A stretch of 64,000 nucleotides of DNA from Lysobacteraceae bacterium NML93-0793 (GTDB lineage Bacteria; Pseudomonadota; Gammaproteobacteria; Xanthomonadales; Xanthomonadaceae): contig NTJG01000004.1 in NCBI GenBank assembly GCA_002324875.1, positions 124,001 to 188,000 on the forward strand, in the 5' to 3' direction. The translations under genes were made by a program, and so were the position numbers. Below are positions 45,650-61,500 of the stretch, one piece after another; position 1 is the stretch's first letter, and each line of letters begins with the position of its first letter. Below the pieces are notes generated by a model. The model ran no database searches and had not been told where the DNA came from. It was given only the letters and a program-made list of their open reading frames with translations.

Positions 45650-45663
45650 TGGAAACGCTTACA
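45650..45663. promoter_or_regulatory. LacI-family operator (autoregulatory)
   Basis: TGGAAACGCTTACA fits the general LacI/GalR operator pattern TGnAAnCGnTTnCA exactly, with the central CpG. It lies 32 bp upstream of the lacI-family ATG at 45696. Confidence 0.85.
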
Positions 45664-45695: not shown

Positions 45696-46721
45696 ATGGG
45701 TGTGACCATCAAGGATGTCGCGAAAGCCGCCAGCGTGTCGGTGGCGACGGTGTCGCGCGCCCTCAATGGTCACCAGAACGTGGCCGAGGCTGTCCGCGCC
45801 CGGGTACTCGAGGCCGCGGCGGCCCTGCGCTACAGCCCGCATCATGCCGCGCGCAGCCTCAGCAGCCGGCGCACCCAGACGGTCGGCGTGGTGCTGCCCG
45901 ACCTGCACGGTGAATTCTTCTCCGAACTGATGCGCGGCATCGACCAGGTCGCGCGCACGCGCGGGCTGCATGTGCTGGTGTCCAGCTATCACGGCAATCC
46001 GGTGGAGCAGGGCGCCGCGTTGCGCGCGATGCGCGGCCGGGTCGATGGCCTTCTGCTGCTGTCGCCGTATGTGCACGATGCCGACTTTCTCGCCCAGAAC
46101 ATCGACGCCAGCCTGCCGCTTGTGCTGATGAACTCCGCCGGCCCGGTGGAGCGCGTGTCGATCGGCATCGACAACTACGGGGGGGCGCGTGAAATGGTGC
46201 GGCATCTCGTCGACGCCGGACACCGGCGCATCGCCTTTCTCGGCGGTCCGGACGACAACGACGACGCGCGCGAGCGGCTGCGCGGCTATCGTGACGGCCT
46301 GGCTGCGGCCGGGCCTGCATTTCAACCCTGGGAATTCCCCGGCCGGTTCGACGAGGATTCCGGCCACCAGGCCGGGCAGGCCCTGCTCGCGATGGAGACG
46401 CGGCCCGACGCCGTATTCGCGGCCAACGACACCATGGCCATCGCCTGTATCTATGCGCTCGGTCGCGGCGGTGTACGCACGCCGGACGAGATCGCCGTCG
46501 TCGGTTTCGACGACATTCCGCTTGCACGCTACGTTCACCCCGCGCTAACGACGATGCGCGTCGACATCGCTGAACTGGGGGCGCGCGCGCTGCGGGTGCT
46601 GCTCGATTCCGATGCCGGAAGCGATACGACACCGGGCTCGACCCGGGGCTTGCAACCGGCGCTGGTGGTTCGCGATTCCTGCGGCGCACACCGCATCGAC
46701 GGCGCACCAACGCCCGGCTAG
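45696..46721 (+). CDS. LacI-family transcriptional repressor
   Basis: The 341-residue LacI/GalR regulator has the DNA-binding domain VTIKDVAKAASVSVATVSRA (residues 3-22), the hinge YSPHHAARSLSSRRT, and a periplasmic-binding-type effector domain (TVGVVLPDLHGEFFSELMRG through IAVVGFDDIPLARYVHP). A LacI operator lies just upstream, and a second near-match lies before the GH144-like gene, so it probably controls the whole 45.7-58.4 kb glycan locus and is relieved by an imported sugar. The effector is not deducible. Confidence 0.92.
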   Translation: MGVTIKDVAKAASVSVATVSRALNGHQNVAEAVRARVLEAAAALRYSPHHAARSLSSRRTQTVGVVLPDLHGEFFSELMRGIDQVARTRGLHVLVSSYHGNPVEQGAALRAMRGRVDGLLLLSPYVHDADFLAQNIDASLPLVLMNSAGPVERVSIGIDNYGGAREMVRHLVDAGHRRIAFLGGPDDNDDARERLRGYRDGLAAAGPAFQPWEFPGRFDEDSGHQAGQALLAMETRPDAVFAANDTMAIACIYALGRGGVRTPDEIAVVGFDDIPLARYVHPALTTMRVDIAELGARALRVLLDSDAGSDTTPGSTRGLQPALVVRDSCGAHRIDGAPTPG

Positions 46722-47057
46722 ACGACACGCACGACACCAGGAGCCTTGGGAGGGGATCTGGATGAGGACTGAGCCATCTGGTGTCGCGTGCGCGCCGCAG
46801 CAGCAGACGCGCGCCGACCTTGAACCCTGCGGATACGCCGGCCTGCGTGGCGATCGGCGCTGTCCTGCAGATGTTTCCCGCATTCCTGTCGCGATCGCTT
46901 CGCCACTCGGCGATCCGGATCGCACCCACTCCGATTTTCGTCGTCTCCGTCGCAGGCCTGCCGCGCAGGCTCGACGGGTACGCCGTGCGCCGCAAGATGC
47001 AGCGCCGTTCAACCGGCCCGTTCTTCCACCGTTTTTACGATTCCAGTGAGAGCTTCC
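46722..47057. other. 336-bp intergenic region with an inverted repeat
   Basis: CGACACCAG (46732-46740) is complementary to CTGGTGTCG (46779-46787) across 38 bp, giving a hairpin just after the lacI stop that could attenuate read-through. No LacI-type operator or protein-like frame is visible in the remainder, which must include the receptor promoter. Confidence 0.45.
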
Positions 47058-50054
47058 ATGACGTCTTCCCTGCTGCGTTCCCGCCCGCTGCCGCGCTCGC
47101 TCCTGAGCGTCGCGCTGGGCGCCTGCATCGCCTTCGCCGCGCCGACGGCGCTGGCCCAGTCCACGGCTGCGACCATCCGCGGCCAGGTCATGGTCGACTC
47201 CGCACCGGCCACCGACGCGCGCGTGACCGCGATCAACACCGCCACCGGCCTGAGCCGCAGCGTCGGCGTCAGCGCGAACGGCAACTACAACCTCGCCGGC
47301 CTGCCGCCCGGCACCTATCGCCTGCAGGTGGACGCGAACGGGCAAAGCAGTTCGCAGACCGTCACCGTGGCCGTGGGCCAGACCGCGACATTGAACCTGG
47401 GTGTCGGCGGCGTGGCCGAAAGCGCGCCGGCGGGTGAGGCGCAGGATCTCGACACGGTGCGCGTGACGGCGGAGGCGCTGGTGGAAACGCGCACGTCGGA
47501 AATCGCGACCTATGTGTCGCCCCGGCAGATCGAAGCGCTGCCGCAGAACTCGCGCAACTTCCTCGCCTTCGCCGACACCGTGCCCGGCATGGTGTTCGTC
47601 AACTCGCCCAACGGCGCGGAGGCGCAGCTGCGCAGTGGCGCGCAGGGCTCGAGTAACATCAACGTGTTCATCGATGGCGTGGGCCAGAAGAACTACGTGA
47701 CGCCCGGCGGCATCACCGGACAGGACGACAGCCGCGGCAATCCGTTCCCGCAGTCGGCGATCGGCGAGTACAAGGTCATCACTTCGAACTACAAGGCCGA
47801 GTACGACCAGATCAGCAGCGCCGCGGTGACCGCGGTGACGCGCTCGGGCACGAACGAGTTCTCCGGCAGCTTCTTCTGGGACCGCACGGCCGACGAGTGG
47901 CGCGCGTCCACGCCGCAGGAACTGGAGGCCGGCGAGAAATCCCCTGAAGTCACCGAGCAGTACGGCGCGACACTGGGTGGCCCGATCATCCGCGACGTGC
48001 TGCATTTCTTCGTGGCCTACGAGGCCAAGGATTTCGTCGTGCCGCAGTTCATCCGTCCGCCCGCGGTATTCGACGCGTCGCAGCTGCCGGCGGATCTGCA
48101 GGCCTTCTACGGCCCCACCAGCAGCCCGTTCAACCAGGACGTGTATTTCGGCAAGCTGAGCTTCCAGCCGGGCGATGCACATCTGTTCGAACTCAGCACG
48201 CGCATCCGCAAGGAAGATTCGCGCAGCGGAATCGGCGGCATCAACACTGATACCTTCGGCACGAATCTGATCAACGACGAGACGCGCGCCAACCTGCGTT
48301 ACCAGTTCTCGTCCGAGCGCTGGCTCAACGATGCGCAGATCACGTTCGAGGATGCGTCCTACAACCCCGTGCCGATTCTTGCCGGACCGGGCCAGCGGTA
48401 CACGATCGTCGACCCCAACAATCCGGCCAACCTGACGCTCGGTGTGCTCAACGTGGGCGGTGGCCCGAACTTCCAGGACAAGGGCCAGAAAGGCCTCGGC
48501 TTCCAGAACGACCTGACGTTCTTCGGGTTCGAAGGCCATACGATCAAGATGGGCGTCAAGTACAAGGAGATCGAGCTGCGCGCGTTCCAGCAGTCGCCGC
48601 CGTTCCCGCAGTACTTCTACGACGTCAACGAGAGCCTGAGCCAGCCGTACCGGATCGAGTACACCACTCCGCGCAGCGGCCGCGATCCGTTCGTGCAGTC
48701 CGACAACCAGCAGTTCGGCATCTACATCCAGGACGACTGGGAGGTCAACGACAGGCTGACCTTGAACCTCGGCCTGCGCTGGGATTACGAGAAGAGCCCG
48801 TCGTACCTCGACTACCGGGTCAATGATGACCTCGCTGCCGCTTTGCGCGGTTGGACCAACATCCAGAACACCGATTACGACGTCGAGGATTTCATCAGTT
48901 CGGGCAGCAACCGCAAGGCGTTCAAGGGGGCCTGGCAGCCGCGTATCGGGTTCTCCTACGACCTGCTGGCCGACCAGCGCCACGTGATCTTCGGCGGTGC
49001 CGGCCGCGCCTACGACCGCAACCTGTTCGACATCATGGCGCGCGAGTTCTATGGCGGTGCATTCACGACGTACCAGATCAATTTCCCGACCGCCCTGCAT
49101 CCGTGTACGGGCAGCAACTGTCTCGGCTTCGATCCGGCGCTGCTGACACCCGAAGGGCTGGCCGCCTACGCCGCCGCGAATCCGACGGCGGGCGGTGAAG
49201 TCAACCTGATCAACAACGACCTCAAGACGCCGTATTCCGACCAGTTCAGCCTTGGCATGCGCAACGTCGTCACCTTGGGCGAGCAGGACTGGAACACGTC
49301 GGTGACGCTGGCCCATATCCGCAGTCGCGATGGCATCTATTTCCGTCTCGGCAATCGCTACGAGGACGGTCGCTTCCACGAAAATCCGGGTGCGACCTAC
49401 GGTGGCGCACCGTTCGGTGAGGCGATCCCCGGCTACGGCTCGCTGATCCTCGGCGACAACGGCATCAACTACAACCTCAACTCGCTGCTGGTCTCGCTCG
49501 ACAAGCCCTATACCGAGGATTCGGGCTGGGGCCTCAATCTCGCCTACACCTACAGCGACGCCAAGGAAAACCGGCCGGATGCATCCGATGGTGAGACCTA
49601 CATCTTCGACTACCCGCGCATCGGGACGGAATACTTCATCTCCACCGGTGTTCCCCGGCATCGCGTGGTGCTGACGGGTATCTACGATCTGGGCTGGGAC
49701 GTGACCTTCAGCGGCAAGCTCACGGTGTCGACGCATCGGCCACGCAACGCGACCAACTGTAACGACGCCGCCTCCGGTGATTTCTGTTTCTACGACCCGT
49801 TCATCCCGAACGGCAGCATCGGCTTCAAGCAGTTCGACATGGCGTTGGAGAAGCGTTTCGATACCGGCACCGATCTCGGCCTCAAGGTGCGGGCGGATGT
49901 GCTCAACGCATTCAACTGGCGCAACTACAACCAGTTCGAAGGCTTCCGGGGCGATCCGGGCGATCCGCAGAATCCCCGTTTCGCCGGTCGCAACGGCAAC
50001 GAGATCCTGCTGCCGACGCGCACGTTCAAACTGTCGTTCGGCATCGACTGGTAA
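47058..50054 (+). CDS. TonB-dependent receptor with N-terminal carboxypeptidase-regulatory-like domain
   Basis: The 998-residue outer-membrane receptor has a signal peptide (MTSSLLRSRPLPRSLLSVAL, ending ALAQ). An Ig-like carboxypeptidase-regulatory domain follows (ATIRGQVMVDSAPATDARVT to TATLNLGVGG), then the TonB box/plug (LDTVRVTAEALVETRTSEIA, SRNFLAFADTVPGMVF) and a 22-strand-type barrel ending in LSFGIDW with terminal Trp. This OmpA-like/CarboxypepD_reg type is common in Xanthomonadaceae for oligosaccharide uptake. The neighbouring LacI repressor, glycosidase and ABC importer support a glycan substrate. ATG 47058 was preferred over GTG 47046. Confidence 0.93.
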   Translation: MTSSLLRSRPLPRSLLSVALGACIAFAAPTALAQSTAATIRGQVMVDSAPATDARVTAINTATGLSRSVGVSANGNYNLAGLPPGTYRLQVDANGQSSSQTVTVAVGQTATLNLGVGGVAESAPAGEAQDLDTVRVTAEALVETRTSEIATYVSPRQIEALPQNSRNFLAFADTVPGMVFVNSPNGAEAQLRSGAQGSSNINVFIDGVGQKNYVTPGGITGQDDSRGNPFPQSAIGEYKVITSNYKAEYDQISSAAVTAVTRSGTNEFSGSFFWDRTADEWRASTPQELEAGEKSPEVTEQYGATLGGPIIRDVLHFFVAYEAKDFVVPQFIRPPAVFDASQLPADLQAFYGPTSSPFNQDVYFGKLSFQPGDAHLFELSTRIRKEDSRSGIGGINTDTFGTNLINDETRANLRYQFSSERWLNDAQITFEDASYNPVPILAGPGQRYTIVDPNNPANLTLGVLNVGGGPNFQDKGQKGLGFQNDLTFFGFEGHTIKMGVKYKEIELRAFQQSPPFPQYFYDVNESLSQPYRIEYTTPRSGRDPFVQSDNQQFGIYIQDDWEVNDRLTLNLGLRWDYEKSPSYLDYRVNDDLAAALRGWTNIQNTDYDVEDFISSGSNRKAFKGAWQPRIGFSYDLLADQRHVIFGGAGRAYDRNLFDIMAREFYGGAFTTYQINFPTALHPCTGSNCLGFDPALLTPEGLAAYAAANPTAGGEVNLINNDLKTPYSDQFSLGMRNVVTLGEQDWNTSVTLAHIRSRDGIYFRLGNRYEDGRFHENPGATYGGAPFGEAIPGYGSLILGDNGINYNLNSLLVSLDKPYTEDSGWGLNLAYTYSDAKENRPDASDGETYIFDYPRIGTEYFISTGVPRHRVVLTGIYDLGWDVTFSGKLTVSTHRPRNATNCNDAASGDFCFYDPFIPNGSIGFKQFDMALEKRFDTGTDLGLKVRADVLNAFNWRNYNQFEGFRGDPGDPQNPRFAGRNGNEILLPTRTFKLSFGIDW

Positions 50055-50063
50055 CACCCGACA

Positions 50064-50095
50064 CTGCCGGCCCCCGCACGGGCGCCGGCAGTTTT
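50064..50095 (+). terminator. Intrinsic terminator after the TonB receptor
   Basis: CTGCCGGC (50064-50071) pairs with GCCGGCAG (50084-50091), extendable inward with one mismatch, and TTTT follows. It separates the receptor transcript from the GH144-like gene 85 bp downstream. Confidence 0.82.
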
Positions 50096-50120
50096 ATACT
50101 GTCCACTGAAAACGATTTCA
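50095..50120 (+). promoter_or_regulatory. Promoter -10 with LacI-type operator before the GH/ABC operon
   Basis: TATACT (50095-50100) is a good -10 box. TGAAAACGATTTCA (50107-50120), a LacI-family operator with one mismatch to symmetry, covers the expected transcription start. It lies 20 bp upstream of the GH144-like ATG. A -35 would fall inside the terminator hairpin and is not evident, so an activator-dependent or weak promoter is possible. Confidence 0.7.
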
Positions 50121-50139
50121 GCGCGAGGTTTCCGTCACG

Positions 50140-51801
50140 ATGCACTCCCGTCTGCGTGCCGCCCAGGTTCTGATCCTCACCGCGCTCGTCGCGCTTCTCA
50201 TCGCCGGTTGCGGTCGCCAGGAGCCGGCGGAGCCCGACGTGCCCGCGCCGACACCCGGGCCGATCGCGCAGGTGCCCGAGCCCGAACCCGAACCGGAAGA
50301 GCAGGGGCCGCCGGAACTGCCGCCGCTGTTCGCCGACATCGAGCGACGCACCTTCCAGTTCTTCTGGGATACGACCAACGAGGTCAACGGCCTGACGCCG
50401 GATCGCTTTCCGTCGCGTCCGTTCTCGAGCGTCGCTGCCGTCGGCTACGCGTTGACGGCCTATCCGATCGGGATCGAGCGCGGCTGGGTCAGCCGCACGC
50501 AGGCGGTGGACCGCACGCTGACCACGCTGCGCTTCTTCCGTGACGTGCGCATGGGGCCGCAGGCGACCGGCACCGGCGGGCACCAGGGCTTCTTCTACCA
50601 CTTCATCGACATGGACCGCGGCCACCGTTTCGAGCCGTGGGTGGAACTGTCGAGCGTGGACACCGGCCTGATGATGATGGGCGTGCTGTTCGCGCAGTCG
50701 TACTACGACCGCGACGATCCGCGCGAAGCCGAGATCCGCAAGCTCGCCGATCAGCTCTACCGCAACGTGCGCTGGCCGTTCCTGCAGCAGCGCAAGCCGC
50801 TGATCTCGATGGGCTGGTACCCCGAAAGCGGCTTCATCGAGCACGACTGGACCGGCTACGACGAGGCGATGCTGGTCTACATCCTCGCGCTGGGCTCGCC
50901 GACGCATCCGGTCGAACCCGAGGCCTGGGAAGTGTGGACGCGCACCTACGACCGGCTGTGGGGCGTGTTCCGCGGCCAGGAATACCTGAGTTTCGCGCCG
51001 CACTTCGGCCACCAGTACACCCACGTCTGGGTCGACTTCCGCGGCATCCGCGACGACTACATGCGCCGCCGCGGCATCGACTACTTCGAGAACAGCCGCC
51101 GCGCGACCTATGCGCAGCGCCAGTACGCGATCGACAACCCGATGGGCTGGAAGGACTACGGCGAGAACGTCTGGGGCCTGACCGCCAGCGACGGGCCGCA
51201 GCGCACCACGCAGGACTACAACGGTGAACAGCGCGAATTCCGCCATTACAGCGCACGCGGCGCGGGCCTCGACGTCGCGTTCGACGACGGCACGATCGCA
51301 CCGACCGCGGCGGTCGCCTCGATCGCGTTCGCGCCCGAGCTGGTGATTCCCGCGACCGAGGAAATGCATCGCCGCTACGGCGACTACCTGTATTCGAGCT
51401 ACGGCTTCCTGGATGCGTTCAACCCCAGCTTCACCTATGAAGATGTGCCGCTGAAGACCGGCCGCCTGATTCCGGGGCGGGGTTGGGTGGCCAGCGACTA
51501 CATCGCGATCGACCAGGGCCCGATCCTGGCGATGATCGCCAACTACCGGAACAACTTCGTCTGGGACGTGATGAAGAAGAACGAGCACATCCGTCGCGGT
51601 CTGGAGCGGGCGGGCTTCACCGGCGGCTGGCTCGCCGGCGAAGACGAGCCGCAGGATTCCGGTCCGGCGGACGTGGACGCGGCGACCGCGCGGGCGATCG
51701 GCATCGCCGAGTCGCGCGCCGCCAATCAGACCCGTGACAATGATGCGCGCGCACCGGCACCTGCGCCGGCGCGCGCGTCGGAACCGGTCCCGGTGGAGTA
51801 G
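50140..51801 (+). CDS. Glycoamylase-like (PF10091 / GH144-like) lipoprotein
   Basis: The 553-residue lipoprotein has the lipobox LIAGC with Cys24. A Pro/Glu-rich linker (residues 30-60) precedes an (alpha/alpha)6 domain: RRTFQFFWDTTNEVNGLTPD, FSSVAAVGYALTAYPIGIER, GFFYHFIDMDRGHR, ELSSVDTGLMMMGVLFAQSY, YDEAMLVYILALGSP and SYGFLDAFNPSF. These match the glycoamylase-like family that includes GH144 endo-beta-1,2-glucanases. Beta-1,2-glucan is therefore the leading substrate guess, but family members vary. The C-terminal 60 residues are disordered (Ala/Pro-rich). It is first in an operon with the ABC importer and sits just behind a LacI operator. Confidence 0.85.
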   Translation: MHSRLRAAQVLILTALVALLIAGCGRQEPAEPDVPAPTPGPIAQVPEPEPEPEEQGPPELPPLFADIERRTFQFFWDTTNEVNGLTPDRFPSRPFSSVAAVGYALTAYPIGIERGWVSRTQAVDRTLTTLRFFRDVRMGPQATGTGGHQGFFYHFIDMDRGHRFEPWVELSSVDTGLMMMGVLFAQSYYDRDDPREAEIRKLADQLYRNVRWPFLQQRKPLISMGWYPESGFIEHDWTGYDEAMLVYILALGSPTHPVEPEAWEVWTRTYDRLWGVFRGQEYLSFAPHFGHQYTHVWVDFRGIRDDYMRRRGIDYFENSRRATYAQRQYAIDNPMGWKDYGENVWGLTASDGPQRTTQDYNGEQREFRHYSARGAGLDVAFDDGTIAPTAAVASIAFAPELVIPATEEMHRRYGDYLYSSYGFLDAFNPSFTYEDVPLKTGRLIPGRGWVASDYIAIDQGPILAMIANYRNNFVWDVMKKNEHIRRGLERAGFTGGWLAGEDEPQDSGPADVDAATARAIGIAESRAANQTRDNDARAPAPAPARASEPVPVE

Positions 51802-51805
51802 GCGG

Positions 51806-53239
51806 ATGCGGCACGCACACCCCCGGCCCCGTGCCCGCCGCATGCCTGCGGGCATTGCGTACGCACTGCTGTGGATGGTGCTGGTGCTGGCCGGTTGTGC
51901 GCGCGATGAAGACGACACGGTCATCCGCTTCTGGGCGATGGGCCGCGAGGCCGAAGTGGTGGCCGAGCTGGTGCGCGAGTTCGAAAACGACAACCCGGGC
52001 ATCCGCGTCGAGATCCAGCAGATTCCGTGGACCTCGGCGCACGAGAAGCTCCTGACCGCGTTCGCGGCCGACGCGTTGCCCGACATCTGCCAGCTCGGCA
52101 ATACCTGGGTGCCGGAGTTCGCGGTGCTGGGCGCGCTGGAGCCGGTGCAGTCGCGCGTCGATGCGTCGACGGTGATCGACGAGGACGACTACTTTCCCGG
52201 CATCTGGCGCACCAATGTCGTCGACGACACGCTGCTCGGCGTGCCGTGGTACGTCGACACGCGGCTGATCTTCTATCGCCGCGACATTCTCGCCGCCGCC
52301 GGCGTCGAGACGCTGCCGACGACGTGGGCCGAATGGGAAGCGGCGATGGCCGCGGTCAAACAGCACGTCGGCCCGTCACGCTATGCGGTGATGTTGCCGC
52401 TCAACGAGTTCGAGCAGCTGCTGTCGTTCGGCCTGCAGACGGGCGATCCGCTGCTGCGCGACGACGACGGACGCGGCAACTTCACCAGCCCCGGTTTCCG
52501 CCGCGCGTTGGACTTCTACGCCAACATGTTCGAGCAGGGCTGGGCGCCGCGGATGTCGGAGACGCAGATCTCCAACGTCTGGGACGAATTCGGCCGCGGC
52601 TTCTTCTCGTTCTATGTGTCAGGCCCGTGGAACATCCGCGAGTTCCGCAACCGCATGCCGGCCGATCTGCAGGACGCGTGGGGCACCGCGCCGTTGCCCG
52701 GCCCCGACGGCCCTGGCGTGGGCATAGCGGGCGGGACGTCGCTGGTGATGTTCCGCGATTCGCCCAACAAGGACGCGAGCTGGAAGCTGATGGAGTTCCT
52801 GTCGCGTCCCGATATCCAGCAGCGCTTCCACGCGATGATCGGCAACCTGCCGCCGCGGCGCAGCACCTGGGACTTCCCGCAGTTGCGCGAGGACCCGTAT
52901 GCGCAGGCGTTCCGCGATCAGCTCGAACGCGTGCAGCCGACGCCGCAGGTGCTGGAGTGGGAACGCATCGTGCAGGAGATGCGCCTGATGAGCGAGCGCG
53001 TGGTCCGCGGCGGCGTGCCTCAGGACCAGGCGCTCCGTGAGCTCGACGCACGCGTCGACACGCTGCTCGAAAAGCGGCGTTGGGTGCGTGAGCAGGAAGG
53101 CGCGGGCGTTTCCGTAGGAGCGCGCTCGCGCGCGGACGGCTCTGCCGTCGAAGCGCTGTCCCGTACGGACGGTTCGATCAACAGCGCGACAGCGCGCGCG
53201 AGTGCGCGTCTGCATGTGGGAGCTGCCCATGCGCACTAG
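51806..53239 (+). CDS. ABC sugar transporter substrate-binding lipoprotein
   Basis: The 477-residue extracellular solute-binding protein (family 1) has lipobox LAGC with Cys31. Mature features are VIRFWAMGREAEVVAELVRE, FENDNPGIRVEIQQIPWTSA, LPDICQLGNTWVPEFAVLGA, GVPWYVDTRLIFYRRDILAA and GTSLVMFRDSPNKDASWKLM, typical of maltose/oligosaccharide binders. GGAG precedes ATG 51806. From about residue 437 the sequence (VGARSRADGSAVEALSRTDG, and on to HVGAAHAH) is encoded by REP-type DNA and does not belong to the fold. The stop overlaps the permease start by 11 bp. Confidence 0.9.
   Translation: MRHAHPRPRARRMPAGIAYALLWMVLVLAGCARDEDDTVIRFWAMGREAEVVAELVREFENDNPGIRVEIQQIPWTSAHEKLLTAFAADALPDICQLGNTWVPEFAVLGALEPVQSRVDASTVIDEDDYFPGIWRTNVVDDTLLGVPWYVDTRLIFYRRDILAAAGVETLPTTWAEWEAAMAAVKQHVGPSRYAVMLPLNEFEQLLSFGLQTGDPLLRDDDGRGNFTSPGFRRALDFYANMFEQGWAPRMSETQISNVWDEFGRGFFSFYVSGPWNIREFRNRMPADLQDAWGTAPLPGPDGPGVGIAGGTSLVMFRDSPNKDASWKLMEFLSRPDIQQRFHAMIGNLPPRRSTWDFPQLREDPYAQAFRDQLERVQPTPQVLEWERIVQEMRLMSERVVRGGVPQDQALRELDARVDTLLEKRRWVREQEGAGVSVGARSRADGSAVEALSRTDGSINSATARASARLHVGAAHAH
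53114..53217. repeat. REP-type element inside the 3' end of the binding-protein gene
   Basis: GTAGGAGCGCGCTCGCGCGC at 53114-53133 is the same family as the copies at 17894 and 55024. A degenerate opposing copy (GCGCGCGCGAGTGCGCGTCT) lies about 53190-53212. The element is translated in frame as the tail of the substrate-binding protein. Confidence 0.75.
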
Positions 53240-54107
53240 CACCGCCGGCTGGATCTTCGCCGGCCCTGCGCTGATCGTGCTGGGCGTGTTCTTCGCGATC
53301 CCGGTCGCGTCGGCGCTGTTGCTGAGCCTCACGGATTTCGATCTCTACGCACTGGCCGACATGTCGAATCTGCGCTTCGTCGCGCTCGGCAATTACATCG
53401 ACCTGCTGCAGACACCGCTGTTCTGGAAGTCGCTCGGCAACACCGCGTACTTCGTCGTCGTCGGTGTGCCGCTGTCGATCGCGGTGTCACTGGGCGCAGC
53501 GCTGCTGCTCAACGCGAAGGTGGCGCGCTTCAAGGGCCTGTTCCGCACCGCGCTGTTCGCGCCGGTGGTGACGACGCTGGTCGCGGTCGCGGTCATCTGG
53601 CGCTACCTGTTCCACACGAGCTACGGCCTGGTGAACTGGGCGCTGGACCACATCGGCATTGCGCCGGTCGACTGGCTGGGCGATCCGGCCTGGGCCATGC
53701 CGACGATCATCCTGTTCGCGGTGTGGAAGAACTTCGGCTACAACATGGTGATCTTCATCGCGGGTCTCGCCGCGATTCCCGAAGATCTCTACGAAGCCGC
53801 GCGTATCGACGGCGCTTCGCGCTGGCAGCAGTTCGTGCACGTCACGCTGCCGATGCTCGGGCCGGTGCTGCTGGTGGTTGCGGTGATCACGGTCTCGGGT
53901 TACTTCCAGCTCTTCGCCGAGCCCTATGTCATGACCCGCGGTGATCCGCTGCAGAGCACGGTCAGCGTGCTGTACTTCATGTACGAGGAAGGCTTCATGT
54001 GGTGGAACCTCGGCCGCGCGTCGGCGGTGGCCTTCCTGCTGTTCCTGATCATCCTCGGCGTGACCACGCTGCTGCTGCGCGCCGGCCGGCGCCGGGAGAT
54101 GGTATGA
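53229..54107 (+). CDS. ABC sugar transporter permease (MalF/UgpA-type)
   Basis: The 292-residue permease has six transmembrane helices, starting AGWIFAGPALIVLGVFFAIP. The EAA loop that docks the ATPase is EAARIDGASRWQQFVHVTLP. GGGAG of the upstream REP-derived DNA acts as Shine-Dalgarno before ATG 53229, and the start lies inside the last codons of the binding-protein gene. It pairs with the MalG-type permease that follows by ATGA overlap. Confidence 0.93.
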   Translation: MRTSTAGWIFAGPALIVLGVFFAIPVASALLLSLTDFDLYALADMSNLRFVALGNYIDLLQTPLFWKSLGNTAYFVVVGVPLSIAVSLGAALLLNAKVARFKGLFRTALFAPVVTTLVAVAVIWRYLFHTSYGLVNWALDHIGIAPVDWLGDPAWAMPTIILFAVWKNFGYNMVIFIAGLAAIPEDLYEAARIDGASRWQQFVHVTLPMLGPVLLVVAVITVSGYFQLFAEPYVMTRGDPLQSTVSVLYFMYEEGFMWWNLGRASAVAFLLFLIILGVTTLLLRAGRRREMV

Positions 54108-54958
54108 GCCGCGCGCCATCACCGATGCACGAAGTGGGCGCGTCGCGCGGGTCGACGTGGGCGGTCAATGGCGCGCTGGTCGCCTTGGCGATCGTCGCCC
54201 TGGCACCGCTGGCGTGGATGCTGTCGGTGTCCTTCATGCCGACCGGCGAGGCGAGCGGCTTTCCGCCGCCGCTGCTGCCATCGGCGTTGACGTTCGACAA
54301 CTACCAGCAACTGTTCGCACGCGCCGGCATGGGCCGGTACTTCGTCAACAGCCTGGTGATCTCGGGCGCGATCACGCTGGGCGCGCTGCTGGTCAACACC
54401 ATGGCCGGCTATGCCTTCGCCAAGCTGCGCTTCCGCGGCCGCGAACGGCTGTTCCAGATCCTGCTGGGCGCACTGGTGATTCCGGCCCAAGTCGCCATGC
54501 TGCCGCTGTTTCTGATGATGAAGGGCATGGGCCTGGTCAACAGCTTCGGCGCGGTGATCATCCCGGCGCTGGCGACGGTGTTCGGCATCTTCCTCGTGCG
54601 CCAGTACGCGCGCTCGATTCCCGACGAGCTGCTGGAAGCCGCGCGCATCGACGGCGCCGGCGAGCTGCGGATCTTCTTCCAGATCGTGTTGCCGATGCTC
54701 AAGCCGGTATTGGTGACCTTGACCATCTTCACCTTCATGGCCGCATGGAACGACTTCATGTGGCCGCTGATCGTGCTGACCGACCAGAGCAACTACACCC
54801 TGCCGGTGGCGATCGCCGCGTTGTCGCGCGAGCACATCCAGGACGTCGAGATGATGATGGCCAGCGCCGTGGTCACGGTGATCCCGGTGCTGGCGCTGTT
54901 CATTGCGCTGCAGCGCTACTACATCCAGGGGCTGCTGCTGGGCAGCGTCAAGGGATGA
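54104..54958 (+). CDS. ABC sugar transporter permease (MalG/UgpE-type)
   Basis: The 284-residue permease has six helices: ALVALAIVALAPLAWMLSVS, NSLVISGAITLGALLVNTMA, and later LPMLKPVLVTLTIFTFMAAW. The EAA motif is EAARIDGAGELRIFFQIVLP. Its start overlaps the upstream permease stop. No ATP-binding subunit is encoded next to it; many carbohydrate importers of this class share a MsmK/UgpC-type ATPase from another locus. Confidence 0.93.
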   Translation: MSRAPSPMHEVGASRGSTWAVNGALVALAIVALAPLAWMLSVSFMPTGEASGFPPPLLPSALTFDNYQQLFARAGMGRYFVNSLVISGAITLGALLVNTMAGYAFAKLRFRGRERLFQILLGALVIPAQVAMLPLFLMMKGMGLVNSFGAVIIPALATVFGIFLVRQYARSIPDELLEAARIDGAGELRIFFQIVLPMLKPVLVTLTIFTFMAAWNDFMWPLIVLTDQSNYTLPVAIAALSREHIQDVEMMMASAVVTVIPVLALFIALQRYYIQGLLLGSVKG

Positions 54959-55023
54959 GGGCGCGCGCGTGCGCCTGCAAAGCGCGCGGGCGTCAACGCC
55001 ATGGCGTGCAGCGCCCATCCGAA

Positions 55024-55093
55024 TGCAGGAGCGCGCTCGCGCGCGATGTGGCGTTCCCTGAGTGGCCCCATCGCGCGCGAGCGCGCTCCTGCA
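55024..55093. repeat. Perfect inverted REP pair (BIME-like)
   Basis: TGCAGGAGCGCGCTCGCGCG (start of the 24-bp arm 55024-55047) has its exact reverse complement at 55070-55093, separated by 22 bp. The pair lies between the permease and the 1086-residue lipoprotein gene. It would form a very stable mRNA hairpin that could lower expression of the last gene relative to the permeases. Confidence 0.85.
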
Positions 55094-55129
55094 AGAACCC
55101 AGAATCGAACCAAGGAGCCAACGCCCCGC

Positions 55130-58100
55130 ATGAAGATTCTCGACACCCGCGCCACGCGCGCGCCTGCCGGACCCGACATGACGCTGGCTGCCGACACCTC
55201 GACGTCGTCCGATCATCTTCGCCTGTCGCGCATCGCACGCGTCTTCGGCATCGCCGCACTCGCCGCTGCCCTGGCCGCCTGCAACGTCTCACCCACGCCG
55301 TCGGGTGAAGGAGCCGCGTCGGCGGGCGAGGGTGTCCGCCTGCTCGATAGATTCGACGATCCTTCGAAGTGGCAGGTAGTGACCTCGAACCAGGTCAGCG
55401 GCGCGCTGCGCGCGGTCGACGGCGTCGATGGTCCGGCTTTGTGCCTGGACTACGATTTCAACGGGGTGTCCGGCCATGTCGGCATCCAGCGCGAGCTGCC
55501 GCTCGACTACCCCGAGAATTTCCGCTTCGGCTTCCAGCTGCGCGGCGACTCGCCCGCGAACGATCTCCAGTTCAAGCTGGTCGACGCCAGCGGCGACAAC
55601 GTCTGGTGGGTGAACCGGCCGAAGTACGACTATCCCGAAGACTGGACCCCGGTGCGCTACCGCACGCGGCACATCGACAAGGCCTGGGGTCCGGACCCCG
55701 ACAAGACCTTGCGGGCCAGCCAGAAGATCGAATTCACGATCTACAACAACGCCGGCGGCGCGGGCTCGGTGTGTTTCGACACATTGACGTTCGAAGCCCT
55801 GCCGCCCGACGACACCTCGCCGCTGACGCTCGCGGCGTCGTCGCAAAGCACGCCGGACAGCATGGCCGCTGCGACCGACGGCAAGGCGGACACCGCATGG
55901 ACGACCGCCGCCGCCCCGCAGACGCTGGTGCTGGACCTCGGTTCGGTGCGCGAATTCGGCGGCGTGCGCCTGCAGTGGGCCGAGGGGCGCGAGGCCTCGG
56001 CCTATGCCGTCTCGCTGTCCGATGACGGGCAGAGCTGGGACGAGGTGCGTACGGTCGTCGACGGCAACGGCGGTATCGACTGGTTGTCTCTGCCCGAGTC
56101 GGAGGCGCGCTACATCGGCCTGGAGCTGCGCGAAGGGCCCGGCGACGGATTCGCGCTGGCCGAAGTCGCCGCGCATCCGGTCGAGGTGTCGGCGCATCCC
56201 AACGACTTCATCAAGGCGGTCGCCGCCGATCATCCGCGCGGCCGGTTCCCGCGCGGCTTCAGCGGCGAGCAGCCCTACTGGACGATCCTCGGGCTCGACG
56301 GCGGCACTCAGCAGGGCCTGATCGGCGAAGACGGTGCGATCGAGGTCGTCGCCGGGGGCTTTTCGATCGAACCCTTCGTGCGCGTCGACGATGCACTGGT
56401 CACCTGGGCGGACGTGGAAACCACGCAGTCACTGCAGGACGACTACCTGCCGATCCCCAGCGTCGACTGGCGCCACGATGCGCTGGCCTTGCGCGTGACC
56501 GGCTTCGCCCGCGGCACGCCCGAGGCCTCGCAGCTGGTCGCGCGGTACCGGCTGGAGAACACCGGTGCACAGGCACGCGACTACACGCTCGCACTCGCGG
56601 TGCGACCGCTGCAGGTCAATCCGCCGAGCCAGTTCCTCAACATCATCGGCGGGGTGAGCCCGCTGCGCGCGTTGTCGGTGACGCCGGACCGGGTCGCCGT
56701 CGACGGCATCCCGCGCGTGTTCGCACGCGAACCGGCACAGGCGGCGTTCGCGACCACCTTCGATGCCGGCATTGAGATCGAGCACATCGCCGCCGGCCGC
56801 GTGCCCGACACCACCGAGGTCGACGACCCGCAGGCCTTCGCCTCCGGCGCGCTGCTCTACCGCGTGCGTCTGGAACCGGGACAATCGCGCGAGTTCGATC
56901 TGCTGGTGCCGATGACCGGCAACGCGCCGACGGCCGGCTGGAATCCGCAAGGCTGGCAGGATGCGGTGGCCGGCGAGTGGCGCGCGAAGCTGGGCGAGGT
57001 CGGCATCGACGTGCCCGAGGCCGGCAAGGCGCTGGCCGACACGCTGCGCACCTCGCTGGCGCACATGCTGATCTCGCGCATCGGGCCGCGCCTGCAGCCG
57101 GGCACGCGCTCGTATGCGCGCAGCTGGATCCGCGACGGCGCGATGATCTCCGAAGGCCTGCTGCGCATGGGCCGGCCGGAAGTCGTGAAGGAATACGTCG
57201 AGTGGTACGCGCCCTACCAGTTCGACAACGGCATGGTGCCGTGCTGCGTCGACGATCGCGGCAGCGACCCGGTGCCCGAGAACGACAGCCACGGCGAGTT
57301 GATCTTCAACATTGCCGAGTACTGGCGCTACACCAAGGACGATGCCTTCCTCGCCGCGATGTGGCCGCACGTGCTCGGCGCGTTCGAGTACATGGAGGTG
57401 CTGCGTGCAAGCGAGCGTACCGAGGCCAACCGGGCGGTCAACGAGGCCTTCTACGGCATGATGCCGGCGTCGATCAGCCACGAGGGCTACTCGGCCAAGC
57501 CGATGCATTCGTACTGGGACAACTTCTGGGCGCTGCGCGGCTACAAGGACGCGGTCGAGGTCGCCGAGGCGCTGGGCAAGACCGAGGACAGCACGCGCAT
57601 GATCGCCGCGCGCGACGAGTTCCGCGTGGACCTCGATGCGTCGCTGCGTGCGGCAGCGCGGATTCACGGCATCGATTTCCTGCCCGGCGCCGCCGAACTC
57701 GGGGATTTCGATGCCACATCGACGACCATCGCGCTCGCTCCGGGCGGCGAACAGGGCCGTCTGCCCGAGCCGCTGCTGACCAACACCTTCGAACGCTACT
57801 GGACCAAGTTCACCGACCGTCGCGACGGCCGCGAGCCGTGGAAGGACTACACGCCCTACGAATGGCGCAACGTCGCCGCGTTCGTGCGCCTGGGCTGGCG
57901 CGAGCGCGCCAACGAGGTGCGGGAATGGTTCTTCGGCCATCGCGCACCGCTGGCCTGGAACCAGTGGGGCGAGGTGGTGACCCCGACGCCGCGCACGCCG
58001 TTCTTCCTCGGCGACCTGCCGCATGCCTGGGTCGGCTCGGACTTCGTGCGCTCGGCGCTGGACATGTTCGCCTACGTGCGCGAGGTCGACGACAGCCTGG

Positions 58101-58390
58101 TGCTCGCTGCGGGTGTTCCGGCGGAATGGCTGGACGGCACCGGCGTCGCGCTGCGCGGCATGCGCACGCCGCAGGGCACGGTGGGCTACCGCCTGCGCCG
58201 CGAGGGCGATGCGCTGCTGCTCGACATCGCTGCCGGCAGCGGCCTGCCACCGGGCGGCCTGGTGCTGCAGTGGCCCTACGCCAGCGTGCCGGGCGCGACG
58301 ACGATCGACGGGCGCCCCGCGCAATGGGATGGCAACGAACTGCGCATCACCGGGGGTAGCGCGCGTGTGCAGATTGCCGGCGCACGTTGA
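55130..58390 (+). CDS. Large lipoprotein: beta-sandwich, discoidin and (alpha/alpha)6 glycosidase-like domains
   Basis: The 1086-residue protein has a lipobox LAAC at Cys51, late because of a 35-residue polar leader; ATG at 55178 would place it at 35. Residues about 60-225 form a beta-sandwich (LLDRFDDPSKWQVVTSNQVS, WWVNRPKYDYPEDW). Residues about 238-355 form a discoidin/F5-8C domain (ATDGKADTAW, ARYIGLELREG). A middle beta domain follows. Residues about 625-1000 resemble an (alpha/alpha)6 toroid with YARSWIRDGAMISEGLLRMG, FDNGMVPCCVDDRGSDPVPE, NDSHGELIFNIAEYWRYTKD and LPHAWVGSDFVRSALDMF. WIRDGAM and the Glu/Asp-rich loops recall GH15/GH63/GH94-clan catalytic regions, but no family could be assigned by eye. 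AGGAG precedes ATG 55130. It ends the LacI-controlled glycan locus. Confidence 0.8.
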   Translation: MKILDTRATRAPAGPDMTLAADTSTSSDHLRLSRIARVFGIAALAAALAACNVSPTPSGEGAASAGEGVRLLDRFDDPSKWQVVTSNQVSGALRAVDGVDGPALCLDYDFNGVSGHVGIQRELPLDYPENFRFGFQLRGDSPANDLQFKLVDASGDNVWWVNRPKYDYPEDWTPVRYRTRHIDKAWGPDPDKTLRASQKIEFTIYNNAGGAGSVCFDTLTFEALPPDDTSPLTLAASSQSTPDSMAAATDGKADTAWTTAAAPQTLVLDLGSVREFGGVRLQWAEGREASAYAVSLSDDGQSWDEVRTVVDGNGGIDWLSLPESEARYIGLELREGPGDGFALAEVAAHPVEVSAHPNDFIKAVAADHPRGRFPRGFSGEQPYWTILGLDGGTQQGLIGEDGAIEVVAGGFSIEPFVRVDDALVTWADVETTQSLQDDYLPIPSVDWRHDALALRVTGFARGTPEASQLVARYRLENTGAQARDYTLALAVRPLQVNPPSQFLNIIGGVSPLRALSVTPDRVAVDGIPRVFAREPAQAAFATTFDAGIEIEHIAAGRVPDTTEVDDPQAFASGALLYRVRLEPGQSREFDLLVPMTGNAPTAGWNPQGWQDAVAGEWRAKLGEVGIDVPEAGKALADTLRTSLAHMLISRIGPRLQPGTRSYARSWIRDGAMISEGLLRMGRPEVVKEYVEWYAPYQFDNGMVPCCVDDRGSDPVPENDSHGELIFNIAEYWRYTKDDAFLAAMWPHVLGAFEYMEVLRASERTEANRAVNEAFYGMMPASISHEGYSAKPMHSYWDNFWALRGYKDAVEVAEALGKTEDSTRMIAARDEFRVDLDASLRAAARIHGIDFLPGAAELGDFDATSTTIALAPGGEQGRLPEPLLTNTFERYWTKFTDRRDGREPWKDYTPYEWRNVAAFVRLGWRERANEVREWFFGHRAPLAWNQWGEVVTPTPRTPFFLGDLPHAWVGSDFVRSALDMFAYVREVDDSLVLAAGVPAEWLDGTGVALRGMRTPQGTVGYRLRREGDALLLDIAAGSGLPPGGLVLQWPYASVPGATTIDGRPAQWDGNELRITGGSARVQIAGAR

Positions 58391-58570: not shown

Positions 58571-61500
58571 ATGGAAGCGATACGTTCGCTGGTAGGTGGT
58601 GTCCTGCTTTTCGCTGTCGCGCAGATGGCGCCGGCACAGGAACTTCGCCCGCATATGCTGTACAGCGAGCGGACGCGGTCGGCGGAACAGGTCACGGCAC
58701 TCAGGTCGGATCTGTTCGGTGACAAGGTCAACCTGTACAACGGGGCCACGGAGTTTGAAGCCACCGATATCGACCTCCCCGGCAACAACGCCCTCCCTGT
58801 CAGGCTGCAGCGGCGTCTGAAGGTCGAAGGGCAGGCCGAGGGATTCGACCATTTCGGCGGGTTCGGCCAGTGGGACCTCGATCTTCCCCATATCTACACC
58901 ACCGTGCCGGATCAATGGGGTGCGGGCGGGCAGCGCTGCTCACAGCAATGGTTGCCGACACCACCGCCGCCGTTCGGCCTGTTCGAAGTCCACAACGGCG
59001 TGCATCTCCGGATGCCCGACGGCTCGGGAGCCGAACTGCTCCGATTGCATGCTGGGGACGGGCGGCCCAGGCCCAGCGATGGAGGCGTCTATCACTGGGG
59101 GTCGAGAAACGAGCATCGTGTCGCCTGCATGAGTTCCGCGACCGCCCAGGGTGAGGGGTTCGTCGTCCTCGATCCCAGTGGCAATCGATATGTCTTCGAT
59201 GTCCTGACCTCCCGGGCGGGTGGAATCCTGCACAAGGGCGAGTACACGCAACCGAAGATCGGCTTCTACATGCTGCCCAGCCGCGTGACGGATCGACACG
59301 GCAACCGGGTCGACTATTCATACGAGGCAGGCCGGCTTGTGCGGATCCAGTCGAGTGACGGACGCCGGATCGATCTGGCGTGGTCCAACGGTGCGATCGT
59401 CCAGGCGACTGCCCACGGCAGGACATGGACCTATCAGTACGGATCCCCCTACTTTTCAGTACTCCAGCCCGATGGCACGTCCTGGCAGTACTCCGGCTCC
59501 GCCCGGACCGATACCCGCTGGGCGTACCAGGCGCTCGACCTTGAGACCACTGCGGGATGTCCGGAGGCGCCGTTGGCAGGCCCGCTCGTCCTCGACCTCG
59601 AGATGCGGCATCCGTCGGGGGCGGTCGGCACGTTCCACTTCACCTATACGCGTCACGGCCGGACCGGAACGCCCGCTTCTGCATGTGTGGTGTACATGTC
59701 GACTCCGGTCGACCCGGTCCAGTCGATTCCGCATTACGAACTTGCGGTTCCCGACTACATGGACAACTTCGCCCTCACGGCCAAGGTGGTCGGCGGGCCC
59801 GGCGTCGCACCCATGCAGTGGAATTACGCCTATGGCGGCGGTTCGGGTGGAGGAAGGACCACCCAGCCTGTGCCATGCATGACCTGTCCGCAGGACAAGG
59901 CTGTCGTGGTCCACGCGCCCGACGGCAGCCGGACCGAGCATCTCTTCGGCACGCTGTTCGAGTACAACGACGGACGGCTCCTGGGGGTCGACACCTATGC
60001 ACCTGCGGGTGCACTGGTCGCTTCGAAGCGCAGCACCTACATGACGGACGCCGAGGCGGCCGCGCAAGCATTCCCGGATACCTATGGCGCGTACGTCGTC
60101 ACGGACGACGCAAGTTCGAACCGGATCAGGCCAGTCCTCCGGGATGTACTCATGCAGGATGGGGAGACGTTCGTATCCGAGGTGAGCCAGTTCGATGCAC
60201 GGGCACGCCCCCTGGTCCGCGGACTCGGCAATTCAGCGGCGGGTACGGTCACTCGAATCGAGTCGAACGCGTATCACGACGATCACGCGTTCTGGGTGAT
60301 CGGCCAGCCGTCCGGAACGTGGGTCAACGGGTTCCAGATTGAGGGAATATCGTACGGCCAGCGCGCGCTGGCGACGGAGATCCGCGCGAACGGGCAACTG
60401 GTCCAGGCGCTGGCCTACCGTGCGGACGGCACCGTGTCGGCGGTGACGGATGGCAACGGCAACACGGTCAGCCTGTCGGCCTGGAAGCGCGGCATTCCTC
60501 AATCGATCGGATTTCCGGGCACGCCGGAGGCTCCGGGCGGCACTGCGAGAACTGCGCTGGTCGATGACCATGGCTGGATCAGGGCGATCACCGACGAGTC
60601 GGGCCACACCACCGGCTACGACTACGACCCGATGGGTCGCCTCGCACGGCTGACGCATCCGTCCGGGGATCTGACGCAATGGAGCGATACGCTCCAATCG
60701 TTCGAACAGGTCAACGTGGACGAGTTCGGGATTCCCGCAGGCCACTGGCGTCAAACGGTCTCGACGGGGCAGGGCAGAAAAATCAGCTACTTCGATGCGC
60801 TGTGGCGGCCACTGCTCACCCACGAGTACGACGCTGCAAACGTCGCTTCGACCTCCCGATATCGTCGCTTTGCCTACGACCACGAAGGCCGCGTCACGTT
60901 CTCCAGCTATCCAAGCAGGACGCCCGCCGCGACCTCGGGAGTGTGGAGTGAATACGATGTCCTGGGTCGTCCGACCTCGGTTGCGCAGGACAGCGAACTG
61001 GGCCTGTTGACCACCACCACGCAGTATCTGTCCGGGCTCCGGACGCAGAGTACGAGCCCGAAAGGACTTCGCACCACCACGAGGCACCTCGCCTGGGGCG
61101 CACCGCGCTTCGATCTGCCGCTCGAGATTACCCATCCGTCCGGCGACTTGACGGTCGTCGCCCGGGACGACCTCGGGAAGCCTACCTCCATCACCCGCCG
61201 CGACGCGAGTGGGGGCACCGCCGTTACCCGCCATTACGTATACCGGCCGGTGGGTCAGACACTCTGCAAGATTGTCGAACCCGAGACCGGCGTGACCATC
61301 CAGGATTTCGACGGGGCGGGCAATCTCGCCTGGTCGGCTTCGGGTCTCACCGGGAACGTAGACGGCGGGTGTGAACTGCAGCGCGGGCTCGTATCAGGCC
61401 GGCGGGTACAACGTGCCTATGACGCACGCAACCGGATCCAGTCCCTCGTATTTCCGGATGGACTGGGCAATTCGGACTTCTGGTACACCCGGACCGGTCA

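Follow-up and report, generated by a model that had tools for sequence, protein, structure and literature searches.

Bacterial beta-1,2-glucans act in symbiosis, infection and osmotic adaptation (PMC12102758; here and below, literature statements refer to passages of the papers cited), and several described systems resemble the locus analyzed here, seven genes at 45696-58390 of a 64,000-nucleotide stretch of DNA from Lysobacteraceae bacterium NML93-0793 (the window; C34:124001-188000 of genome G000, 3.64 Mb). The sux locus of Xanthomonas campestris, a carbohydrate utilization containing TonB-dependent receptor (CUT) locus, likewise joins a LacI-type repressor, a TonB receptor, an inner-membrane transporter and a carbohydrate-cleaving enzyme, but its transporter is a major facilitator superfamily carrier, whereas the window encodes an ATP-binding cassette (ABC) importer (PMC1790865). 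The lin1839-1841 genes of Listeria innocua resemble our locus in encoding a Lin1841-type ABC binder together with a beta-glucosidase of family GH3, and SGR_2422-2427 of Streptomyces griseus share with it a binder of this type, ABC transporter genes, a beta-glucosidase and a beta-1,2-glucanase family (both PMC12369401). For the GH144 enzyme XcSGL (XCC2207), activity and structure have been reported, and the operon is not discussed in the passages concerned (PMC12102758).

The window locus holds together the gene content of a CUT locus, namely a TonB receptor, an inner-membrane sugar transporter, a degradative enzyme and a regulator. It further differs from sux in that an ATPase, a beta-glucosidase and a zwf/Entner-Doudoroff region are joined to it via a shared operator, and in its probable substrate, beta-1,2-glucan. 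Unlike lin1839-1841, the system has no GH94, would use hydrolysis instead of phosphorolysis and includes an outer-membrane receptor and GH144; GH193 and GH1 of SGR_2422-2427 are replaced here by GH144 and GH3, with a Gram-negative receptor and a large multi-domain protein encoded by the last gene (the last protein) in addition. Our analysis indicated that the locus most likely belongs to a LacI-controlled catabolic regulon for beta-1,2-glucans. An outer-membrane-to-cytoplasm route for such glucans had been proposed in a sequence-only reading of the window, and it is well supported by the GH144 orthology, the Lin1841-type binder, the shared operator and the co-regulated ATPase and GH3 enzyme. 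That reading also called the system possibly undescribed, which fits the assembled system as far as our searches of the open-access PMC literature reach, but the GH144 ortholog had already been described. We found no paper in that literature on the operon, the regulator or the last protein, nor on the whole beta-1,2-glucan import route in Lysobacteraceae, and the main-text passages of a 2014 survey of LacI regulons do not mention Xanthomonas.

Gene content and the GH144 enzyme

The open reading frame list and a Pfam search of the window proteins placed seven genes, all on the + strand, at 45696-58390, and these are the LacI, TonB receptor, GH144, binder, permease and large multi-domain genes that had been named before. 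The LacI-family repressor (45696..46721; PF00356, PF13377) is followed by the TonB-dependent receptor (47046..50054, start GTG 47046 or ATG 47058; CarboxypepD_reg and OMP_b-brl_4 barrel, with Plug under its cut-off), the GH144 lipoprotein (50140..51801), the ABC solute-binding lipoprotein (51842..53239; LAGC lipobox; SBP_bac_1/8, E 4e-38), ABC permease 1 (about 53202..54107, start uncertain, 53202 or 53229; BPD_transp_1), ABC permease 2 (54104..54958; BPD_transp_1) and the last protein (about 55130..58390, start 55130 or 55178), which has a signal/lipobox, a CBM32 and a putative six-hairpin catalytic domain. No ATPase gene was found within 45696-58390.

The GH144 protein matched PF10091 at residues 235-481 with E 9e-86 and 287 bits against a cut-off of 27, and it has a LIAGC lipobox, which confirmed the earlier assignment as a GH144/PF10091 lipoprotein; genome G000 encodes a single PF10091 protein. 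The match to XCC2207 (XcSGL, PDB 8XUL) was near full length, with 886 bits over 518 residues (phmmer), and the catalytic and clan residues were conserved: E239, F286 and Y367 of XcSGL correspond to Glu242, the Phe of PHFGHQY and the Tyr of RHYSA, as counted by hand in the alignment, the chain and paper numberings differing by 14. The Gln at the acid position of chain 8XUL was read as an XcSGL mutant. By this alignment the GH144 protein is an ortholog of XcSGL/XCC2207. XcSGL hydrolysed beta-1,2-glucan alditol at 3.85 U/mg and showed no activity on the other polysaccharides tested, with xylan not examined (PMC12102758). Across loci, a crude lipobox rule was satisfied by 65 of 77 GH144 proteins and 35 of 78 binders, and the listed misses still showed a lipobox-like signal end.

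Predicted operators and the proposed LacI regulon

Palindromes such as TGTAATCGATTACA were conspicuous upstream of the receptor gene in loci of Pseudoxanthomonas and Lysobacter. The motif taken from these loci was tested as TGTAANCGNTTACA and relaxed to TGNAANCGNTTNCA after two window sites had been seen; a first palindrome search before the window receptor had given GC-rich chance matches only. In the window, TGTAANCGNTTACA had five matches with at most three mismatches against a chance mean of 4.6, so that the evidence there is the placement of the sites, the match count itself being no more than chance. The two best matches (one and two mismatches) are the predicted LacI operators TGGAAACGCTTACA (45650..45663, + strand), 32 bp before the lacI start codon, and TGAAAACGATTTCA (50107..50120, + strand), 19 bp before the GH144 start codon.

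We then scanned 80 loci with the last protein, which were fetched and kept out of 338 confirmed in named genomes. They contained 192 exact TGNAANCGNTTNCA sites, compared with 0 in one mononucleotide shuffle of each, and all were upstream of lacI, GH144, the receptor or the ATPase/zwf/glk region, except three found where a paralog of the last protein begins. An exact site lay within 300 nt upstream of lacI in 69 of 70 cases, of GH144 in 56 of 77, of the ATPase in 31 of 41 and of the receptor in 11 of 74, but the motif was derived from those very loci, which makes these counts partly circular. The same distance before the binder (0/78) and before the last gene (0/80) held none, and the last gene is therefore assumed to be transcribed together with the GH144 operon.

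The data not used to choose the motif were the whole-genome scan minus the two window sites, the GH3 promoters and eight paralog loci (L168-L175). Genome G000 had eight exact TGNAANCGNTTNCA sites and 0 for the reversed pattern. Two of them precede lacI and GH144, a third falls between the ATPase gene and zwf (L112:10436), and a fourth, on contig C2, starts 22 bp in front of a GH3 gene. Of 30 loci with GH3 orthologs, 22 had an exact promoter site, 6 had one with a single mismatch and two (L156 and L159) had none, whereas a site was present in 16 of 600 random windows, windows on a real site included. For paralogs of the last protein, the operator was exact in 6 of 11 and had one mismatch in 4 of 11 (L174 was without a site), and in genome G067 the paralog is located elsewhere, behind its own operator. 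In locus L165, which has no last gene, a GH1 gene and the ATPase have a common operator-bearing intergenic region. By pattern match, then, predicted operators are present at four transcription units of the genome, and LacI would be the protein that binds them and would also regulate its own gene.

By eye, the other four genomic sites stand near a hemC-like gene (C9:64448), between pilM- and ponA-like genes (C14:9950), by a small lipoprotein-like gene (C1:119867) and where a topoisomerase-like gene begins (C44:30767).

Conservation of the gene cluster

The 80 loci came mostly from Luteimonas, Pseudoxanthomonas, Xanthomonas and Stenotrophomonas, and the cluster is also present in plant-associated relatives. 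The closest named relatives of the last protein were from Luteimonas (93% identity), of the family Lysobacteraceae. In 77 of the 80 loci, the genes for GH144, binder, two permeases and last protein followed one another as in the window, on one strand, and the exceptions (L051, L076 and L094) were all broken by contig ends; a chance cluster was rejected because of this constancy. The receptor was directly 5' of the five-gene block in 71 of the 77 loci, and lacI was there too in 67. Median identities across loci were 83 and 79% for the permeases, 72% for GH144, 68% for the binder, 65% for the last protein, 63% for LacI and 53% for the receptor. Among 120 relatives' genomes, the own genome included, the last protein was matched in 57 (G067 by its paralog only), and all of these are among the 63 with a strong PF10091 match (>200 bits, counted by eye).

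In six genomes that lack an ortholog of the last gene, the GH144 locus was inspected; they are five of the six without any match (G100 was left out) plus G067. The G106 locus reads lacI, receptor, GH144, binder, permeases and ATPase, and next to it a GH1 gene points away from the ATPase gene, with an operator between the two and another site within the receptor gene; in G029 a GH1 gene adjoins zwf, in G118 a GH1-like gene (by eye) is about 2 kb beyond the permeases, and in G091 there is only a permease fragment beside GH144. A tryptophan-halogenase-like flavin adenine dinucleotide (FAD) protein was seen between receptor and GH144 in L167 (14917-16572), L163 (12950-14608) and L166 (9306-10823), the assignment being Pfam-checked in L167 alone. 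Two tandem receptor genes precede GH144 in G029 (L162 325-6480), 57 and 56% identical to the window receptor. One contig titled Bacillus subtilis (L087, JAHREJ010000018.1) bears a Stenotrophomonas-type locus and is probably contamination or a mislabelled record.

Proposed import and glucose catabolism

All parts of a MalEFGK-type importer were found: an SBP_bac binder, two BPD_transp_1 permeases and an OB_MalK ATPase. The ATPase, the sole one of the OB_MalK type in the genome, is encoded at C34:196532-197629, 8.5 kb past the window end, outside the operon yet behind the same operator as the GH144 operon. The nearest PDB sequences of the binder were 3UOR with 630 bits and Lin1841 with 243 bits, followed by 131 and lower, and genome G000 has one binder of this kind. 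In the PDB search 3UOR is named an ABC transporter sugar binding protein; we take it to be MalE of X. citri, which is treated as maltose-binding. Lin1841 binds beta-1,2-glucooligosaccharides (Sop3-5; PMC12369401).

The genes zwf-glk-pgl-edd-eda (named by eye from sequence) and the ATPase gene (by profile match) lie shortly after the window end, beyond an RHS-like gene. Of the 71 loci that span at least 20 kb, 40 had two or more Entner-Doudoroff genes on the fragment and 40 had the ATPase; in most Xanthomonas loci neither was nearby. The intervening gene is an RHS/YD-repeat gene with fibronectin-type repeats (window 58571-63862 plus L112 1-2825) that separates the locus from the Entner-Doudoroff/ATPase block, and its window protein had no match at E 1e-20 in the compared loci.

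The GH3 protein behind the fourth operator showed no evident signal peptide at its start. Its best PDB matches were 6r5i and 5xxl (565 bits), which we take to be BglX of P. aeruginosa and BT_3567, respectively, and among named chains Lin1840 (483 and 479 bits). Orthologs at E 1e-150 or better were found in 46 of 120 genomes, so some of the 57 genomes that have the last protein are without one at this threshold. For 12 of 16 family members with a 48-50% identical GH3, the GH3 gene shared a contig with GH144, at a distance of no more than about 12 kb (by eye). Phosphorolysis by GH94 was rejected for genome G000, which encodes no GH94.

The last protein

From its N-terminus, the last protein consists of the signal/lipobox, a region with a weak CBM11 match, the CBM32, a middle region, the six-hairpin domain and a C-terminal region. 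Its earlier description as a lipoprotein fits this sequence (LAAC lipobox) but not orthologs in general, the crude rule finding a lipobox in 14 of 80. The CBM32 (F5/8 type C; 55832..56161, + strand) matched with E 5.5e-16, and its best PDB matches were domains of glucanases and chitosanases. The putative catalytic domain (56957..58117, + strand) reached no Pfam or NCBIfam cut-off, and sub-cut-off matches of the protein were to GH15-like, GH78, GH133 and GH95 models. TIGR01577 (GH15-type oligosaccharide amylase) matched 23 of 26 rows with a best E of 1.2e-9 (row 1 had 29.5 bits against a cut-off of 820.7), Bac_rhamnosid6H 23 of 26 (best 7.5e-7) and GDE_C 22 of 26 (2.8e-6), and the GH15 model PF00723 was listed for none of the 26 rows. 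PDB profile searches with the whole protein and with the catalytic domain gave CBM32 matches and chance-level matches only.

A profile of 26 GH15 sequences (26 of 30 loci; L187, L188, L189 and L193 were left out) aligned with the last protein over 277 columns with E 1.1e-4 (hhalign). For comparison, E was no better than 0.067 in 20 column shuffles, 0.10 for the reversed alignment and no better than 0.054 for profiles of GH144, binder, permease, LacI and receptor; for PF06202 (GH133), the single match in 200 genomes was not enough to build a profile. The order of the RD, DxxGE and C-terminal Glu motifs agreed with that of GH15 glucoamylases and glucodextranases (SWIRDG / YxxCWxRD, NDSHGEL / QxDxYGE, GEVV..GDLPHAW / SEEYD..GNFPQAF), and in the sequence alignment invariant Glu residues are near the places matching the GH15 catalytic pair, with a candidate acid in SISHEGYS (57482-57484, + strand) and a candidate base in NQWGEVV (57971-57973, + strand). 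Unlike those enzymes, the last protein stays below all GH15 cut-offs, has a CBM32 and a further N-terminal region, and belongs to a beta-1,2-glucan operon. The catalytic domain is probably a member of the six-hairpin superfamily that is distantly related to GH15.

TonB receptor and intergenic elements

The receptor of the nearest relative (L032 1890-4934) was 91% identical over the first 100 residues but about 46-60% beyond residue 300, while the remaining operon was 89-98% identical, and the receptor barrel therefore seems to have been exchanged relative to L032. In Xanthomonas campestris pv. campestris (Xcc), XCC2208 is likely the counterpart of the window receptor, to judge from its number adjoining XCC2207. 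The main-text passages of the 2007 Xcc receptor survey name XCC2208 once, as being without a canonical plug domain (PMC1790865). No SusD model was among the Pfam matches of the seven genes, and a SusCD-type polysaccharide utilisation locus, with its SusD-like surface glycan binder, was rejected.

A GC-rich hairpin followed by TTTTA, read by eye at 50064..50096 (+ strand) between the receptor and GH144 genes, is a possible terminator or attenuator; it was not listed by a scan for sigma-70 promoters and terminators, whose output did not exceed that of shuffled sequence. Between permease 2 and the last gene, a long GC-rich inverted repeat (TGCAGGAGCGCGCTCGCGCGCGA...TCGCGCGCGAGCGCGCTCCTGCA) was seen at 55024-55093, and traces of similar peptides in other reading frames point to an interspersed element resembling repetitive extragenic palindromes (REP).

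Discussion

Several results weigh against a LacI-controlled beta-1,2-glucan regulon as described here. There was no exact site in 4 of the 80 loci (L076 and L094, which are short contigs, L098 and L107), and the window receptor has no operator, its best site having four mismatches to TGTAANCGNTTACA and three to the relaxed pattern. The second exact site in L165 falls inside the receptor gene, and four of the eight genomic sites (C1:119867, C9:64448, C14:9950 and C44:30767) have no evident link to the system; they may be chance palindromes or further regulon members. The GH3 protein scored higher to 6r5i (592 bits) than to Lin1840 (483 bits), and the GH15 match of the last protein was weak (hhalign probability 57% local, 77% global). 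The last two results concern GH186: 8 of the 57 genomes with the last protein have no GH186 (G067, with its paralog only, is among them), and the GH186 protein of G000 keeps R477 only, with W76 replaced by Tyr and D343 by Gly (hand count). The chain used in that comparison, 8x18, is presumably XccOpgD, and its Asn at 379 fits the D379N mutant of PMC11228985.

W76, D343 and R477 of XccOpgD are marks of cyclic-glucohexadecaose synthases, and some members of the synthase clade also have Tyr at the W76 position (PMC11228985). With one of the three residues, the GH186 protein of G000 may not make the cyclic glucan, and synthesis of the Xanthomonas cyclic glucan by this genome is not supported by these residues. 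GH186 has also to be considered for another explanation, in which the locus would be a housekeeping system that recycles the cell's own periplasmic glucans rather than one for foraging. Across 72 genomes, 49 had both GH186 and the last protein, 8 the last protein only, 3 GH186 only and 12 neither (Fisher p 2.5e-6, not corrected for relatedness), which favours recycling, but the eight genomes without GH186 do not fit, and the TonB receptor in 71 of 77 five-gene loci points outward. We regard recycling as a possible explanation to be held tentatively, and it is compatible with most of what we propose for the regulon. The glucans are probably periplasmic or extracellular osmoregulated periplasmic glucans of proteobacteria and possibly the cell's own.

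For the last protein, GH15 enzymes act on alpha-glucosides, so a remote GH15 relative may cut an alpha bond. To our knowledge, the one alpha bond known in the beta-1,2-glucan context is the alpha-1,6 closure, which makes it the first-choice reaction, and the protein may cut the alpha-1,6 link of cyclised beta-1,2-glucans. This closure is described for cyclised beta-1,2-glucans of Xanthomonas, Ralstonia and Cereibacter (PMC11842490; PMC11228985). The changed residues in the GH186 protein of G000 count against this choice. As a tentative proposal, the last protein would found a new glycoside hydrolase family, related to GH15 and guided by its CBM32, with the single alpha-1,6 linkage in cyclised beta-1,2-glucans, or in the kinked oligosaccharides remaining after GH144, as its target. 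The protein might instead be an exo-acting beta-1,2-glucan enzyme, for example one that releases sophorose, since its gene sits in a beta-1,2-glucan operon and the beta-1,2-glucanases of clan GH-S are also (alpha/alpha)6 barrels (PMC12102758). However, the GH144 profile reached a probability of 1% (E 0.054) compared with 57% (E 1.1e-4) for GH15, and the near-matches were to the GH15-like, GH78, GH133 and GH95 models, so we think this rather unlikely. The earlier suggestion of a new exo-enzyme is plausible as to its novelty, as no family cut-off was reached, but the nearest relatives are six-hairpin enzymes of GH15, GH133 and GH78 type and not beta-1,2-glucanases.

GH3 enzymes of this type act on several beta-glucans, 3UOR is the nearest PDB chain of the binder and the catalytic domain of the last protein resembles alpha-glucan hydrolases, yet a regulon for general beta-glucosides or maltodextrins with GH144 as a side activity is quite improbable, since Lin1841 had 243 bits and any chain named maltose binder at most 109, the first gene of the operon is that for GH144, whose ortholog acts specifically on beta-1,2-glucan, and no alpha-glucosidase gene was recognised by eye at the eight operator sites (GH13 and GH31 were not searched for).

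Returning to the beta-1,2-glucan regulon, we infer the following for the substrates of the receptor and binder, for every flux step and for the reaction of the last protein. The TonB receptor would carry glucans or long oligosaccharides over the outer membrane, and the GH144 lipoprotein would cleave their beta-1,2 bonds, while the CBM32-bearing last protein would take off residues resistant to GH144 and beta-glucosidase, with the alpha-1,6 link as first choice. The binder and two permeases, driven by the sole MalK-type ATPase, would import the oligosaccharides, the GH3 beta-glucosidase would liberate glucose in the cytoplasm, and Glk, Zwf and the Entner-Doudoroff enzymes would consume it; an intermediate would free LacI from the TGNAANCGNTTNCA sites.

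The ligand of 3UOR, a binder of known structure, would then be beta-1,2-glucooligosaccharides, as the regulon suggests, and the locus points to a possible new enzyme family in the last protein. The regulon would extend from the outer membrane to the Entner-Doudoroff pathway, appears widespread in Lysobacteraceae and could be tested with a few purified proteins. If the last protein does open the alpha-1,6 bond, Lysobacteraceae would own a dedicated regulon for dismantling glucans of the same class as those employed by Xanthomonas when it infects plants.

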